Virus record (IMG/VR): IMGVR_UViG_3300030114_000013
Coordinates: 1 to 58,938 of that record
Reading direction: 5' to 3' (one strand)
Source: a virus
DNA length: 58,938 bases
Below the pieces are notes generated by a model that was not told the origin of the DNA, ran no database searches, and was given only the letters and a program-made list of their open reading frames with translations. This document shows positions 8,460 to 50,652 of this stretch, one piece after another. Positions within the stretch are counted from its first letter, which is position 1; each line of letters begins with the position of its first letter. Position numbers and translations under genes: made by a program.

Positions 8460-9235
8460 AGGCATGTACTCATTGAGAGGTGACCTTAAAACAACTATTT
8501 TACGTTAATCGTCCGAGGGTAACGGGGATATAAATATTTAGAATATTATCCATATGCTTGTGATGGGAATTGCCTACATTAGTCTGAGCCATTAAATTTA
8601 TCGAAGTAGAGATGTGAAACCTACTCGATTCTAGAGTTAACTATGAAAAATCGGTGAGTTTCTACCTTAGTGGTTATTTTATCAAGATGTGGTCTCAGCA
8701 TGTAAAATCAGAGAAAGTTGTGATAATTTCAAACAACTATAAAAAGCTTTCAAGATGGGAAGTCGTGAAATGTGGGAAGGTTATAGCAAATAATATTAGG
8801 ATATAACCAAAGTAATTTTTCGGTGGATTAAAATTATATTATTTAGATGTTATCATAGCATACCAAAAACGAAATAGATAACAATGTGTATCTATTAAGC
8901 AATAAATTAAATGTCGCTTCAAGATTAGGTATTTAATTTGCTTTATAATGGTTTTATGTTTACCAAAACTTGAATAGGATTAACAATCTGAAAGAAAACA
9001 TATGATTTTGAAGATAGGCTTTACGCCAGTGATTTAATAATTAATTAGATAAAACTTGGTTTTCTAGAAACCAGTAGATACATTAAGTTCTATACATCTT
9101 ATATATGTATCATAAAATCTAATGTTTAATAGGGTATGAAAACCTAACAAAATGCTGAATTGAGTTTTGATGACTGAATTAATATAACATTAGACGTAAT
9201 ACAATCATAGCAGGTACGTTAAGCTTGCTTTTTAA
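8460..9235 (+). ncRNA. Large highly structured non-coding RNA candidate (ROOL/GOLLD-like class)
   Basis: Nearly 790 bases without a credible ORF separate 8451 from a tRNA, in a genome whose other gaps are mostly short. The block is packed with stems: TCGAAGTAG (8601-8609) with CTACTCGA (8621-8628); AGTTGT (8716-8721) with ACAACT (8733-8738); GGTTATA (8779-8785) with TATAACC (8802-8808); AATAGATA (8873-8880) with TATCTATT (8889-8896); AAGCAA..ATTAAAT (8897-8912) with ATTTAATTTGCTT (8931-8943); GATACAT (9077-9083) with ATGTATC (9105-9111); and a 9-bp closing stem TCTAATGTT (9118-9126) with AACATTAGA (9186-9194). Giant ornate phage RNAs (ROOL, GOLLD) are known to lie next to phage tRNA genes and have this size. 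Class membership is inferred from size, position and structure, not from a covariance model. Confidence 0.6.
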
Positions 9236-9238
9236 TAT

Positions 9239-9325
9239 GGGTGGATATGTCTAGTGGCGATGACAGCAGACTGTAAATCTGTTACGTAAGAAACAACGTA
9301 GGTTCGACTCCTACTTCACCCACCA
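9239..9325 (+). tRNA. tRNA-Tyr (GTA)
   Basis: A full cloverleaf of class II type. The acceptor GGGTGGA pairs with TTCACCC (one G-U pair); the anticodon arm GCAGA-CTGTAAA-TCTGT gives anticodon GTA; the variable arm is about 15 bases, as expected for bacterial tRNA-Tyr; the T arm is GTAGG-TTCGACT-CCTAC. The CCA end is encoded (9323-9325). It directly follows the structured RNA block, so both may be made as one transcript and separated by processing. Confidence 0.93.
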
Positions 9326-12931: not shown

Positions 12932-12978
12932 CAAATTAATATAATTAAAAAAACTTATAAAAGTAATGTTTTTAAAGG

Positions 12979-13007
12979 GACTGGATTGAAATATGTCCAG
13001 TCTTTTT
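12979..13007 (+). terminator. Intrinsic terminator
   Basis: GACTGGA (12979-12985) pairs perfectly with TCCAGTC... (12996-13002) and is followed by CTTTTTATT. It ends the left gene block and isolates the antirepressor leader that follows. Confidence 0.85.
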
Positions 13008-13030
13008 ATTATGCAGAAATTTAAAATTAG

Positions 13031-13161
13031 CAATATATAAACATACTATACTCCTGTATAGATTGGTTCTCCGTATGGAAGTGAAATTTATGTTTATATA
13101 TTGGTGATTTTAAATCATACGCTATGGGTATGCTGAACCTAAATCAGTAAAGGAGAACCAA
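13031..13161 (+). promoter_or_regulatory. Riboswitch-like leader of the AntA-type gene
   Basis: A perfect 15-bp stem, CAATATATAAACATA (13031-13045) with 13089-13103, encloses the hairpin CTATAC-TCCT-GTATAG (13046-13061) and the single-stranded element TTGGTTCTCC (13063-13072). That element is exactly complementary to GGAGAACCAA (13152-13161), which contains the ribosome site of the gene at 13165. Between them lies a second stem: GATTT/AAATC (13106-13110 with 13141-13145) and CATAC/GTATG (13116-13120 with 13128-13132). The leader can thus close a pseudoknot that hides the ribosome site. The pairings are seen; control of translation is inferred. No sigma-A promoter was found between the terminator and the stem. 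Confidence 0.65.
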
Positions 13162-13164
13162 ATT

Positions 13165-13974
13165 ATGAAAACAATACAAATTAACAAGGTGAAGGTAATA
13201 ATATTTGAGGAAGCTGAACTAAAAGAAAAATTAGGAATGAGTAGAGAAAATATTAGTTCAATTTTAGAATATCAAAGAATATTCCCCGAATTATTACAAG
13301 ATGACATTGAAGGATTTATTATTGACGCTAGAAAATTACATAATCAATTAAAATTACAAAAGGATTTTTCGGATTGGATTAAAATACAAATAAAAAATTT
13401 AGATTTAGAAGAAGAAAAATCATATACCACTTTAAAGGGGAATTGCACAACCATGCGACCTAACGCAAGTATAGAATATTATTTGACTTTAGATTGTGCA
13501 AAAGATATATGTATGACTGTTGGTTCTTCTAATAGAACCAATAAAGAAACAAAAGACATATCTAAGATGGTAAGAAATTATTTTAAAGTGATGGAAAAGA
13601 CTTTGAGAAACTATGAAAAATGGCAAGCAACGAGAGAGCCTGAAAAAGATGGAGCTAATGTCATGAGAAGTCATATTGCAAATTGGTGTGATAGAAATGG
13701 ATACGATAAAACATTGAAGAAGTTTTATACTAGAGAATTTAATTTATTAAATGAAAGTTTAGTCGGTTTAGATGCACAAGGTATTAGGTGTGAAATTGGA
13801 TATAAAGATAAACAAACAAGAGAACACTTGTTAGAATTAGAAAATAGTGCTTTAGCTTTTCTTCAAGATTTAAATATTAGTCTATTAGATGCTGATATGA
13901 GTTTTGAAGATAGAAGTAATATTATAAAAATAACTTGTGATACTAAATATTCTAAGTTAAAAAGAGTTGGATAA
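13165..13974 (+). CDS. Phage antirepressor, AntA/AntB-domain protein
   Basis: A 269-residue protein. Residues about 50-115 read IDARKLHNQL...KDFSDWIKIQI...EEEKSYTTL, then a segment with TLDCAKDICMTVG...ARNYF-like spacing (KMVRNYFKVMEK). This is the typical layout of the AntA/AntB family, in which the domain sits at the front of phage antirepressors that inactivate a lysogeny repressor. The first 45 residues are an extra helical part. The C-terminal 100 residues are helical and not recognised. Its ribosome site lies inside the folded leader at 13031-13161, so synthesis is probably controlled at translation. A second antirepressor-type gene with a similar leader is at 27685. Confidence 0.75.
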   Translation: MKTIQINKVKVIIFEEAELKEKLGMSRENISSILEYQRIFPELLQDDIEGFIIDARKLHNQLKLQKDFSDWIKIQIKNLDLEEEKSYTTLKGNCTTMRPNASIEYYLTLDCAKDICMTVGSSNRTNKETKDISKMVRNYFKVMEKTLRNYEKWQATREPEKDGANVMRSHIANWCDRNGYDKTLKKFYTREFNLLNESLVGLDAQGIRCEIGYKDKQTREHLLELENSALAFLQDLNISLLDADMSFEDRSNIIKITCDTKYSKLKRVG

Positions 13975-27345: not shown

Positions 27346-27401
27346 TCAAATGTTCATTTTAAAGGAATAAAAATTATTTAAACAAATTAATAGAAATAAG
27401 T

Positions 27402-27431
27402 ATTGACTTTACAATTAATTGGTAGTAATAT
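27402..27431 (+). promoter_or_regulatory. Sigma-A promoter upstream of antirepressor leader
   Basis: TTGACT (27402-27407) and TAATAT (27426-27431) are 18 bases apart. The -10 surroundings TAGTAATATG match those of the promoter at 30772, suggesting the same regulatory class. A transcript from here would carry a 5' leader of about 245 bases before the gene at 27685. Confidence 0.65.
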
Positions 27432-27489
27432 GTAATTATACCAAGTAACAAATTAACACAAATAAAGTCAATACATAATCTAAAACTAT

Positions 27490-27654
27490 ATACTGCAATG
27501 ATGCTATTCCTTTGCATCAAATTTATTAGTGAATACATAAAGGGTAATTTATGACTAAGGGTAGCTCCCTTGGTCGGATTATTCTAACTAATAAAAATGA
27601 AAAGGAAGTAGTATGATTGGAATATATATGGAAACATATGTATTCACTAATAAA
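27490..27654 (+). promoter_or_regulatory. Folded leader of the KilAC-type antirepressor gene
   Basis: A perfect 18-bp stem joins TTTATTAGTGAATACATA (27522-27539) with its complement at 27637-27654. Inside it lies GACTAAGGG (27553-27561) paired with CCCTTGGTC (27567-27575); in front lies TGATGC (27499-27504) with GCATCA (27514-27519), whose loop TTCCTTT is complementary to the AAAGGA of the gene's ribosome site. The layout mirrors the leader at 13031, in front of the other antirepressor-type gene. Regulation of translation is inferred. Confidence 0.6.
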
Positions 27655-27684
27655 TAAATTAAAATAAAAAGGAGATGTTTCGAT

Positions 27685-28638
27685 ATGGAACAAAATAAAA
27701 TTATTAAGCTATTTATAGGAGAAAAGGTACAAACTAAGGAGCGTGAATTCACAAAAGTTTTAGGTGGATTTTCAGAAACAAGTCCAGTAATTACTGATAA
27801 GCAAATATCACAATTATTAGACTATTCAAAAGGAGCAAGACAAGTTAGAGTTCAAGTTACAAATAATCTAAAACATTTTACCAACGATGATATAAAAGAT
27901 GTCCTTCTCATGGACAACAATTTAGAAATGTTGAAACCACTGGGATATAGCAAGATGGAAGTATCAAAAGCAGATAATATTTATATATTTTCCGAGGCAG
28001 GTTTTCTATTATATTTAAAGTTTGCCGAAGGTGATAAATCAGTAGAATTATACAAAGATTTTATTGAAGATTATTTTAAAATTAAGGCAGAAAATATAGT
28101 AATGGAAAAGACATTAGAAGAAACTAAGCGAACACTAATTGATGAAAGAAAATACATATTGGGTAGTGTTATTTTTGAAACTGATACAACTAAGAAAATG
28201 GAACTATTACAAAGAGATAAAAAATTAGAAGAACAAATTAATGAAATAGAAAAGAATTTAGCTAAGGAAGAATTAATGGAACAATTGAAAGATAAATTAG
28301 CTATTGCAGACGCATTTGAACAATCTAATAAAGAATATAGTATTGGTACATTTGCTAAATTCTTAAATATTAAGAATTTTGGACAAAACAAATTATTTGA
28401 ATGGATGAGAGATAGCGAAATATTAATGAAAAACAATGAGCCATATCAAAGATTTATGAATAATTTTCATGTTATACCAGTTAAGAAAAATAAATTTACT
28501 GGCAGTAAAACTTTGATTAAAGCAAATGGAGTATCGTACATAGTAAATAGATTAATAAAAGATGGTAAAATTCAATCTAAAACTTACGAGGAAATTATAA
28601 ATGATATAAATGAAAATTTACAAGTGGAAGCTAGTTAA
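27685..28638 (+). CDS. Phage antirepressor with KilAC-type C-terminal domain
   Basis: A 317-residue protein. The N-terminal 125 residues include FTKVLGGFSETSPVITDKQIS and a RQVRVQVTNNLKHF segment with the feel of an ORF6N/Bro-type DNA-binding domain. A coiled middle follows (about 130-200), then a C-terminal domain reading ADAFEQSNKEYSIGTFAKFLNI...NKLFEWMRDSEILMKNNEPYQRFMNNF, which is the typical KilAC pattern seen in phage antirepressors. It likely binds DNA or a repressor to switch lytic growth on. The gene has its own promoter and a long folded leader, and is followed by a terminator. Confidence 0.85.
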   Translation: MEQNKIIKLFIGEKVQTKEREFTKVLGGFSETSPVITDKQISQLLDYSKGARQVRVQVTNNLKHFTNDDIKDVLLMDNNLEMLKPLGYSKMEVSKADNIYIFSEAGFLLYLKFAEGDKSVELYKDFIEDYFKIKAENIVMEKTLEETKRTLIDERKYILGSVIFETDTTKKMELLQRDKKLEEQINEIEKNLAKEELMEQLKDKLAIADAFEQSNKEYSIGTFAKFLNIKNFGQNKLFEWMRDSEILMKNNEPYQRFMNNFHVIPVKKNKFTGSKTLIKANGVSYIVNRLIKDGKIQSKTYEEIINDINENLQVEAS

Positions 28639-44026: not shown

Positions 44027-44076
44027 TATGAAATTATTAATATTATTATGTAATTATACCAATATACTACAAATTG

Positions 44077-44085
44077 TGGTATAAT
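44077..44085 (+). promoter_or_regulatory. Extended -10 promoter of the secreted-protein gene
   Basis: TGG-TATAAT (44077-44085) lies 50 bases before the gene; no clear -35. The same TGG-TATAAT core occurs at 53303-53311 and, on the minus strand, at 29571-29563. Confidence 0.65.
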
Positions 44086-44134
44086 ATTCTAAGAGATATG
44101 ATTATATAATAATATTAATAAGGGGTTGGATATA

Positions 44135-48800: not shown

Positions 48801-49079
48801 GTTACAACTAAATTAAATAATATATTTATAACTCAAACATTAGGCGAATTAAAAGTAGGAGATAAGATAAAGGAATGTTTTTCAACTTATGCAGATGAGA
48901 ATATAGAATTTATAATAGTTAATAAAAATGAAAATATGGTTACATTGATGACAAATATAATATCTATAAAACCATTTGATGTAGCCGAAAGTGTTTTAGT
49001 AAATGGTGATGCTATTTGGAATGATAGTAATATAAAACAATGGCTAAATAGTAATGATATATTAGTTAGGAGAAAATAA
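45900..49079 (+). CDS. Large baseplate/tail-fibre protein with Ig-type domains
   Basis: A 1059-residue protein starting at GTG 45900 behind AAAGGAGG. The body contains several beta-sandwich modules of fibronectin/Ig style (WDSLSYNIHTITIKVIDSFGNIVSR; WSSITYGTHTLKIIIVDSNGYTYTK; EYQVKIRTYNDSNQYSAWSNI) and a concanavalin-like stretch in the middle. The last 120 residues (GERVVFNLPLGTRC...AIWNDSNIKQWLNSN) resemble small C-terminal domains of Firmicute surface proteins (DUF6273-like). It likely builds the side or tip of the baseplate and binds the cell surface. Confidence 0.6.
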   Translation: MAITEKIGTLYMNGVKVKFTGDTRTQYILNAPLEIRNKDTDSDYTIEFLRFSNGVKQYLVSTNVLLTNISYDDLSKQGLVSGQVISIDGQKYKIRLMSAGTTTRINGDNYSKANPTTNEWDTYLLNEIGLSTTPTPNGQDLSGSYTNETIITSITNNIWHWNKIGSLSSSKVGYDVTVRGNLSASYFSTINQFARSSTVGWRLWLEIYNEPSTISGQDKYLNSYTSSFKQPYIIYDGDADLMNIEEYVDNTLIRKLENETTGFNSSVDLSSVWDSLSYNIHTITIKVIDSFGNIVSRIYSFNKIQIISGESTSLTKPLIVTTNNSGILEPINALVENSIPFRVVGGDICYFNEVNISTNDSDQTVVYNRKLESFDFESPILKNSLINGKEYQVKIRTYNDSNQYSAWSNICLIKTFSPANIIINGIINGQITTQNPLITASFSQSDTYLNNGTSVTTSDTLYSYQFYLIKDGQTITESPVLTDGLLQYQFSSLENKTNYIIKLITLTNGNVQTITEESFYCLYQQSRMTALFEVKPEKSTGSVVLNVYAKQIRGRIEYGEIQFIDGEWCSLHDGTIIFDDQSPFKVENDFTMKIWARDLEDSNVMLLKLSNEVGYIELTRYGNMFWISKWVQGVKLYTKYSLISGDIHSEDEFFFYIQHIADTGLMNFEVTRITNGTTTWYTKQTDNDLPPSIANTTYNSYDKEDGFLTNLSDGLKSLIIPVSVDGVNTKVYLPSKDDLIGNNAYTLFKYIRPNEDINYEETRSVLGEYVLGTTLLSSESDNSNLSVRVKNNYIGSNPLNIKYKLLNYSNSSIDIYEKIDDITFNIRKNIYKPTDLANEYIIDLTPLWSSITYGTHTLKIIIVDSNGYTYTKELTFGKASSKIGILTQSAIDKNTDNALALTKEQPYKYYTRTVDSTDGNKLNIINSDDTIASEYPNAMNIGERVVFNLPLGTRCTTYKDPIDNCYTVTTKLNNIFITQTLGELKVGDKIKECFSTYADENIEFIIVNKNENMVTLMTNIISIKPFDVAESVLVNGDAIWNDSNIKQWLNSNDILVRRK

Positions 49080-49097
49080 TCTCTCCTAACTTTTTTG
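49066..49097 (+). terminator. Terminator overlapping the fibre gene's end
   Basis: GTTAGGAGA (49066-49074) pairs with TCTCCTAAC (49083-49091), followed by TTTTTT. The stem begins inside the last codons of the gene. Confidence 0.8.
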
Positions 49098-49131
49098 TTG
49101 TGCAAATTAATAAAAAGAGGAGAGATTATTT

Positions 49132-50652
49132 ATGGCAACCACAGAGTATTTTAATAATACTAATTATAAAAATTATACTAAATTTACTCAAGAAAATAAT
49201 CTGACATTAGATGATGACATAATTGTAGTACAAGATATAAGTGCTGAAGATATGATTAAAATGGATAGACTAGAGTTTTTGAGTAAGAAAATATACCCAA
49301 CCGAAGCAGAGAAATCAGAAATGACTCAACTTAAAGTTGATTTGATAACTTATATGCCAACTGCTAATACAATAAATAAAATAGGTGGTATGTTATATGG
49401 AATGCAAGTCTACTTAAAAGAAGGAGTAGTAATATTTATTAATCAACAAAAGCAAGAATTAATAGATATAGTAAATAACCACAAATATATGGGTATATAT
49501 GTACCTTTGACTAATTATGCACAAGGTAATATGGTAATGTTTGATGGATATGGATTCATAAGTAAGGTCAATGAAAACATAGGACATACTCCAAATAAAG
49601 AAGCAATAGATGATGGATATTGGATTCGTTTTACTATAAAAGGAGAAAAAGGAGACCCATCTTTAAACATATATATCAAAAAAGGTGCTGACGGTAGTGG
49701 AAATTTTGATAATACAATTACATATAACACTGGAGATGCTTGTATATATGACCATAGATTATATTATTGTATAAAAGATAGCACAGTAGGAATAAACCCA
49801 ACAGATACTACAAAATGGGCTTTTGGAGAAAAAATATGGATAGGGACTAACGCCCCGATTGACCATAGTGTTATATGGTGGGATACTACTATTGGTCAAA
49901 ACGTATTTAAAAGATATTCTGATAATAATATATGGGTGGGGCAAAATGTAAAAGCAACTGACGTAACTATTACAGATAGTGGAAATTATTTTACAATAAA
50001 AACTACCGAAGGTGCATTAGCTCAAATGGGTTTAAAGCTAAGTTATTTTACAGAAGTTAGTGGAAAATTATACTATAAAGGAAGTAAGGTAGGTGCAACT
50101 GTTGCAAGTGAAATATCATTACCTGCAATAAGTGGTCTAACAAGTGATACGAATATATATGATGGAATGCAAAAGCTTTTTACACTTGCCAATAACGGGA
50201 AAACAAGTATTGCTGGAGTTGTTGGCAATGTAACTGGCAGTAATACACATACAGAAATAGCTAATGAAGTTCAAGTAGATAAGAATATATTAGTTAGTAA
50301 TTTGAATAACAAAGGAATTATTGTAAGCAGTAGTGATACTTTAAGGAATTTATCAAATGCAGTAAGTAACATAACATTATCAAGTATGGGTGGAACAAAT
50401 TATGCAACCGGTCAAATTTCACATGTATACGGAACAACAGATACAGTTAATTTTCCTTTTACTGCTAGTGTTGTCAGGCTTGTGGAAAATAGTTCACCTG
50501 CTTTATCATATATATGTGTACCTGGTATGAGTAATAATTTTTATATGCACATGACAAATTCGTCATTTACACAATATACAAGTAATGGTTCATCTATTGC
50601 AATACAGTCACTTGTCGGTACTGGAACATTCACATACTATGCGTATAAATAA
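49132..50652 (+). CDS. Tail fibre or receptor-binding protein with carbohydrate-binding modules
   Basis: A 506-residue protein with an AGAGGAGAG site. Two short modules of the chitin/cellulose-binding type 5/12 style appear (YVPLTNYAQGNMVMFDGYGFISKVNENIG and TITYNTGDACIYDHRLYYCIKDS), each with the strand-aromatic pattern of such modules. A collagen-like GEKGDPS joins them. Its C-terminal part (TNGKTSIAGVVGNVTGS-like and SSSDTLRNLSNAVSNI) recalls trimeric clostridial phage fibre tips. It probably recognises wall polysaccharide. Confidence 0.65.
   Translation: MATTEYFNNTNYKNYTKFTQENNLTLDDDIIVVQDISAEDMIKMDRLEFLSKKIYPTEAEKSEMTQLKVDLITYMPTANTINKIGGMLYGMQVYLKEGVVIFINQQKQELIDIVNNHKYMGIYVPLTNYAQGNMVMFDGYGFISKVNENIGHTPNKEAIDDGYWIRFTIKGEKGDPSLNIYIKKGADGSGNFDNTITYNTGDACIYDHRLYYCIKDSTVGINPTDTTKWAFGEKIWIGTNAPIDHSVIWWDTTIGQNVFKRYSDNNIWVGQNVKATDVTITDSGNYFTIKTTEGALAQMGLKLSYFTEVSGKLYYKGSKVGATVASEISLPAISGLTSDTNIYDGMQKLFTLANNGKTSIAGVVGNVTGSNTHTEIANEVQVDKNILVSNLNNKGIIVSSSDTLRNLSNAVSNITLSSMGGTNYATGQISHVYGTTDTVNFPFTASVVRLVENSSPALSYICVPGMSNNFYMHMTNSSFTQYTSNGSSIAIQSLVGTGTFTYYAYK

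Follow-up and report, generated by a model that had tools for sequence, protein, structure and literature searches.

Antirepressor genes can switch a phage from dormancy to growth. In the literature found, RNA control of antirepressors is described for P1/P7, P22, Gifsy-1 and phage Phi24B only. The C4 RNA of P1/P7 is cut from a larger transcript; its b' loop covers the ribosome site and its a' loop gives specificity (PMC5320573). The phages that carry C4 in the published table are Proteobacterial. The IsrK-orf45-anrP locus of Gifsy-1 has an active and an inactive fold of nearly equal energy and an upstream ORF before the antirepressor, and the nucleotide sequence of this ORF is conserved more than its peptide (PMC4825925). 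In P22, antirepressor translation is controlled by pairing with sar RNA, a separate small antisense RNA of 68/69 nt (review PMC12197685).

The window, which is the whole stretch of DNA analysed, is a 58.9-kb viral contig. It carries an antirepressor gene that is preceded by a conserved leader RNA with its own promoter and with structure predicted from the sequence. This RNA is not represented in Rfam. It resembles the known cases of antirepressor RNA control. The features listed below are those of the window leader (W), which is compared throughout with five distinct relatives (L040, L041, L042, L043 and L044).

27400-27411 / 27463-27474, no strand assigned: 12-bp inverted repeat around the promoter, GTATTGACTTTA/TAAAGTCAATAC
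27403-27431, + strand: promoter TTGACT-N17-TAATAT, predicted start at about 27438, conserved in all six leaders
27499-27504/27514-27519, + strand: H0 hairpin, 5' of the closing stem, with the loop UAUUCCUUU (27505-27513) complementary to the Shine-Dalgarno sequence (anti-SD)
27521-27539, + strand: arm A, lineage-variable; its partner is A' (27637-27655) or, for the 5' half of the arm, A'' (27587-27595)
27541-27585, + strand: near-invariant 45-nt core, from alignments and covariance model R1
27551-27616, + strand: possible upstream ORF 1, MTKGSSLGRIILTNKNEKEVV, with its ATG in all six leaders
27587-27595, + strand: A'', with which arm A can pair instead of A' (helix P1, of 9 bp in W)
27598-27619, + strand: 3' strand of P0, containing AAAGGAA (27601-27607), able to hold the anti-SD
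27613-27657, + strand: possible upstream ORF 2, MIGIYMETYVFTNK, whose start codon overlaps the ORF 1 stop (ATGA)
27620-27645, + strand: hairpin C, GAATATATATG-gaaa-CATATGTATTC, which competes with A:A' for arm A'
27637-27655, + strand: arm A', the complement of arm A, located 15 nt before the SD core GGAG
27668-27674, + strand: Shine-Dalgarno (SD) sequence AAAGGAG, target of the anti-SD loop
27676-27692, + strand: start-codon hairpin UGUUUC-gauau-GGAACA, with the AUG partly in the loop
27685-28638, + strand: antirepressor gene with a C-terminal ANT/KilAC domain and a weak N-terminal ORF6N domain (Pfam; ANT 2.4e-13, ORF6N 7e-05, the latter under its own cut-off)

Like C4 (RF01695), the leader precedes an antirepressor within one transcript or operon. 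As in C4, there is in 6/6 leaders a segment complementary to the ribosome binding site (the H0 loop, comparable to b') together with a variable segment (arm A, comparable to a') that is complementary to the sequence immediately preceding that site. The architecture is different, however. C4 consists of three stem-loops in about 77 nt, whereas this leader has one core hairpin and places its anti-SD hairpin outside the closing stem; the closing stem starts with AUUUAUUAG and not with GG, while RNase P cuts C4 at GGW. With the RF01695 covariance model, neither 27380-27720 nor 12950-13200 gave a match, even with E allowed up to 10. Since the Rfam C4 model is unmatched and the shape differs, the leader is not counted as a C4 member.

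The likeness to IsrK/anrP is that the antirepressor gene is preceded by a pair of alternative structures and by a small upstream ORF. The Gifsy-1 sRNA activates translation of that ORF and works by translational coupling, whereas the complementarity found here is directly to the SD region of the gene itself. Unlike sar RNA, the leader is structured with alternative folds and is not a separate small antisense RNA. As in translational riboswitches, the anti-SD has two possible partners, of which the SD is one, but no known aptamer is recognised in the leader: no Rfam riboswitch class matches it, and nothing among the Rfam families does so above chance level.

Relatives of the leader and their promoter

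A public viral collection was searched with the protein as query, which led to 15 loci, and with core patterns, which led to 14 contigs. After removal of duplicates six distinct leaders were left, W included. The five further distinct versions come from other phage contigs. Looser core patterns returned no contigs of the viral collection beyond the known set. A DNA search of annotated phages and plasmids for relatives of the leader gave chance-level pieces only, and none turned up in cellular genomes with either a pattern scan or a protein-alignment scan. Covariance model R1, which describes the core, found a single copy, at 73-90 bits, in every phage record that carries one, and nothing else scored near this range.

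Five of the six leaders, that of the window among them, stand before ANT/ORF6N antirepressors. The sixth, L041, is 89% identical to W and stands before a Rha-domain protein that has no ANT domain and is not homologous to the ORF6N/KilAC gene of the window. The downstream gene, wherever it could be read, is an antirepressor. Comparison of these sequences shows the leaders to be dedicated to antirepressor genes, as judged from the predicted proteins. The Rha-type protein of L041 (L041:1701-2663) has no Pfam match in the N-terminal part before its Pfam Rha domain (residue 183). It begins MEQNK, as do the unrelated KilAC antirepressors, which marks the border of the leader module that was swapped. 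Another virus record, L012, has an antirepressor that is 71% identical and carries no leader of this type.

The claim that the leader has its own promoter held up. The promoter is kept as TTGAC(T/A)-N17-(TAATAT or TATAGT) in the same place in 5/5 relatives. A consensus promoter scan alone is not above chance, the window having fewer promoter-like sites than its shuffles. A transcription start downstream of 27540, which according to the sequence-only reading would remove the closing stem, seems unlikely because the predicted promoter is conserved in all six leaders.

The inverted repeat that flanks the promoter varies between the leaders. In L041 an A-T pair has turned G-C on both sides, in L042 and L043 the repeat is 15-17 bp long, L040 has one mismatch and L044 lacks the repeat. 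It could be an operator pair or a hairpin of read-through RNA, possibly the latter since it covaries or lengthens in relatives. As a repeated operator GTATTGACTTTA was rejected; its 17 window sites within 2 mismatches equal the shuffle mean. In L044, the sole leader without the promoter-flanking repeat, an unrelated inverted repeat (CTATATATTGTAGT/ACTACAATATATAG) lies immediately 5' of the promoter, about 150-260 nt before the core.

The closing stem and its competing partners

The closing stem had been described as 18 bp long (27522-27539 with 27637-27654). It is perfect as stated, but it comprises 19 bp (27521-27539/27637-27655) with 97 nt between the arms. This is the longest perfect inverted repeat in the window among those with arm starts less than 200 nt apart. 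When the window was shuffled 60 times by dinucleotides, the maximal repeat was 12-16 bp and never more than 16, one shuffle having none of at least 12 bp. The arms were compared between leaders in a hand alignment without gaps, in which the six sequences represent only three independent arm lineages. Between W and L043, 12/18 pairs are changed on both sides and none is broken; between W and L042 there are 9 compensatory changes and 2 broken pairs. When an arm of W is set against the arm of another lineage, pairing falls to 7-9/18. The comparison shows that, at the level of sequence, the complementarity of A and A' is lineage-specific.

The core between the arms has an inner stem of 10 bp (27552-27561/27567-27576), previously taken as 9 bp, with the loop UAGCU at 27562-27566. 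A further 10-bp stem that includes G-U pairs extends it (27541-27550/27576-27585); the two stems cannot both be complete because base 27576 is common to both. Flanks and genes diverge between the leaders, whereas the core is nearly identical, at 92-96% across 49 nt in those four relatives that have no indel. No second GGGTAGCTCCC site that might serve as a trans target of the core loop was found on either strand of this phage with up to 2 mismatches.

H0 is conserved in 6/6 leaders and its stem covaries. P1 has 9-11 bp in 6/6 leaders, with 3 compensatory changes between lineages, and hairpin C likewise has 9-11 bp in all six, with compensatory pairs. The strong inner helix of P0 is missing in L042. 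The start-codon hairpin is found in the relatives, and L040 re-forms the same hairpin with different bases. RNAalifold, run on a MAFFT alignment, independently recovered the core, the hairpins H0 and C, that at the start codon and the outer portion of P0, and counted 8 compensatory pairs; it is limited to these parts because MAFFT misplaces the 3' arms.

These elements combine into two folds. In the closed fold H0, A:A' and the core are formed. In the open fold A pairs with A'' (P1), A' is in hairpin C, and the H0 strand with the anti-SD is in P0 around AAAGGAA. Alternative partners of both arms are present in 6/6 leaders, whereas shuffled linkers give both in 0-0.7% of cases (0.000-0.007 for each leader). 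The comparison shows that mutually exclusive helices exist, as predicted from complementarity.

Energies were computed for naked RNA at 37 C. When W is folded as the full transcript that starts at the promoter, the predicted minimum-energy fold lacks the 19-bp stem and lies about 7 kcal/mol below the fold that has it. By ensemble energy the open or unconstrained fold is favoured by 7.6 kcal/mol in W, 5.2 in L040, 5.6 in L041, 6.3 in L043 and about 1.5 in L044; L042 alone favours the closed fold, by 5.0 kcal/mol. In all six the folds are no more than about 8 kcal/mol apart. Growing prefixes of W fold H0, then P1 and then P0, and the closing stem never appears. The closing stem had been presented as the structure of the leader. 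The stem is real, but a conserved competing partner exists for each arm, and according to the models it is one half of a bistable design. In W it is the non-favoured half, because the ensemble energies prefer the open fold and the prefixes do not form it.

Pairing with the ribosome site and competing explanations

The sequence-only reading also named a hairpin loop with complementarity to the ribosome site. The inner core loop does not fit this description, matching the SD by just 4 contiguous bases, but the H0 loop does: UAUUCCUUU can pair with AAAGGAG over 7 bp, one of them G-U. A 7-bp match to an SD is by itself not rare. Despite differing loop sequences, H0 loop:SD complementarity of 5-7 bp is present in 6/6 leaders, the lineage pairs being UUCCUUU/AAAGGAG, AUUCC/GGAGU and UCUCC (in the loop UUCUCC)/GGAGA. 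The order of elements is the same colinear order as in an antisense RNA. Since the loop is 5' of A and the SD is 3' of A', the closed stem juxtaposes anti-SD and SD.

Nested energy models of the W lineage leave the SD unpaired with a probability of 0.76 in the closed fold vs 0.78 in the open one, so that there is little hiding of the site. In these models anti-SD:SD pairing is clear in L043 (0.40) and L044 (0.74) only. In W it would need opening of H0 or a loop-SD pseudoknot, which is beyond nested models, and this is the weakest step. When the upstream segment and the target were folded together, segments of the same lineage gave -10 to -15 kcal/mol and those of other lineages -3 to -9 kcal/mol. 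The W segments are joined mostly through the P0 strands and less through A:A'. Lineage-specific pairing in these cofolds restates the covariation and is not proof of action in trans.

Control of antirepressor translation by A:A' together with anti-SD:SD pairing, in cis or in trans, is given an even chance. The modular structured 5' leader would hold translation of the antirepressor low through base pairing. The upstream segment (the anti-SD loop of H0 plus arm A) would pair colinearly with the downstream segment (A' plus the SD). In the OFF state both A:A' and anti-SD:SD would be formed and the ribosome site would be covered. In the ON state A would be in P1 with A'', the anti-SD in P0 with AAAGGAA and A' in hairpin C, leaving the SD free. 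The invariant core hairpin would be the common scaffold, and it is a likely spot for a factor, processing or pausing to set the balance. The pairing segment may act within the same mRNA, or it may be freed at the core by termination or processing and act in trans, in the way of C4 RNA in P1/P7. Silencing by A:A' plus anti-SD pairing, the default state and the choice between cis and trans are the parts of this mechanism that we infer.

A narrower version in trans is a tentative possibility on the unlikely side. The leader would be a Gram-positive-type counterpart of C4, in which the promoter-proximal leader is freed and silences the antirepressor mRNA in trans, with arm A defining immunity groups within this set of phages and P1, C and P0 protecting the full-length mRNA from self-silencing. 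The core U-tract is poor, so the release of a short RNA is unproven. It is unlikely that the leader instead works only in cis, as a riboswitch-like or protein-sensing leader whose invariant core picks the fold on binding a small molecule or a phage or host protein. The high identity of the core amid diverging flanks and genes is what such a switch would show; its stem bases are themselves conserved, beyond pairing, and two mutually exclusive folds are present. However, the core forms no multi-branched pocket but a simple, long hairpin whose loop has 5 nt, the neighbouring genes give no hint of a ligand, and the Rfam comparison is as negative as described above.

The folds might be shifted by ribosomes that translate the upstream ORF (MTKGSSL..) and, perhaps by coupling, the second ORF, as orf45 does for AnrP of Gifsy-1. 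There is thus published precedent for alternative structures plus an upstream ORF (PMC4825925), and the ATG of ORF 1 is retained in all six leaders. Its ribosome site is strong (AAGGAG) in L040 and L041 only, and the stop-start overlap with ORF 2 occurs in W and L041 only. In L042-L044 the ribosome site is weak, however. The frame is not retained beyond codon 14. The substitutions in the shared codons of ORF 1 are non-synonymous and preserve pairs, and no change is synonymous. Since they alter the peptide yet keep the stems, they point to a constraint on the RNA and not on the peptide; a peptide constraint on the upstream ORF is disfavoured, and a role of its translation is quite unlikely. Transcription attenuation, in which the core hairpin would terminate intrinsically or cause a pause while read-through into the gene is set by the upstream arms, is very improbable. 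The core is listed as terminator-like (27552-27576, tail GATTATTCTA) by a scan that found 2 sites against 0.2 expected in shuffles, but the tail is purine-first without a U run and is also paired within the extended core stem, and no antiterminator capable of disrupting the core was detected. It is hardly credible that the repeats are DNA-level features, such as operators or a recombination site, or are due to chance, with the RNA fold irrelevant. The sequence around the promoter is palindromic too (27400-27474), but the arms are downstream of the conserved promoter and free to change in sequence while complementarity is kept, including by G-U pairs. There are also several nested alternatives, and 19 bp is not expected by chance.

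The leader at 13165 and wider meaning

The sequence-only reading held that the same plan occurs before the gene at 13165, which encodes an AntA-type antirepressor. A closing stem with a 15-bp perfect core is present at 13031-13103, and UUGGUUCUCC (13063-13072) is perfectly complementary over 10 nt to GGAGAACCAA (13152-13161). This anti-SD is the second-longest perfect SD complement among the 86 SD-like sites examined in the window. The two leaders differ in sequence, as had been said, but also in geometry: the anti-SD at 13165 is inside its closing stem, whereas that of the 27685 leader is outside. No promoter was found on the + strand of the 13165 leader. As a homologue it was rejected, the core model scoring 12.5 bits (E=10) with no sequence relationship. 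The single relative of the 13165 leader, L053, is identical to it and offers no comparison. The analogy between the two leaders is therefore loose. A regulatory theme common to the two leaders is plausible but unproven.

Three further sites in the window were noted. The gene at 49132 has its SD in the 3' arm of a 14-bp perfect inverted repeat (AAATAATCTCTCCT / AGGAGAGATTATTT) at 49074-49131; this is the longest SD-sequestering complement in the window. An AT-only 16-bp inverted repeat at 44034-44121 ends just before the gene at 44126 and may be a closed leader. A drum RNA (Rfam RF02958, 54.7 bits) is located at 8897-9006, shortly before a tRNA at 9239-9322.

The system before the gene at 27685 is compact, and arm swaps should alter its specificity. 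That a conserved, modular two-state leader serves two antirepressor families unrelated to each other, in uncultured phages with AT-rich DNA, suggests that gating antirepressors by RNA is a solution that recurs.
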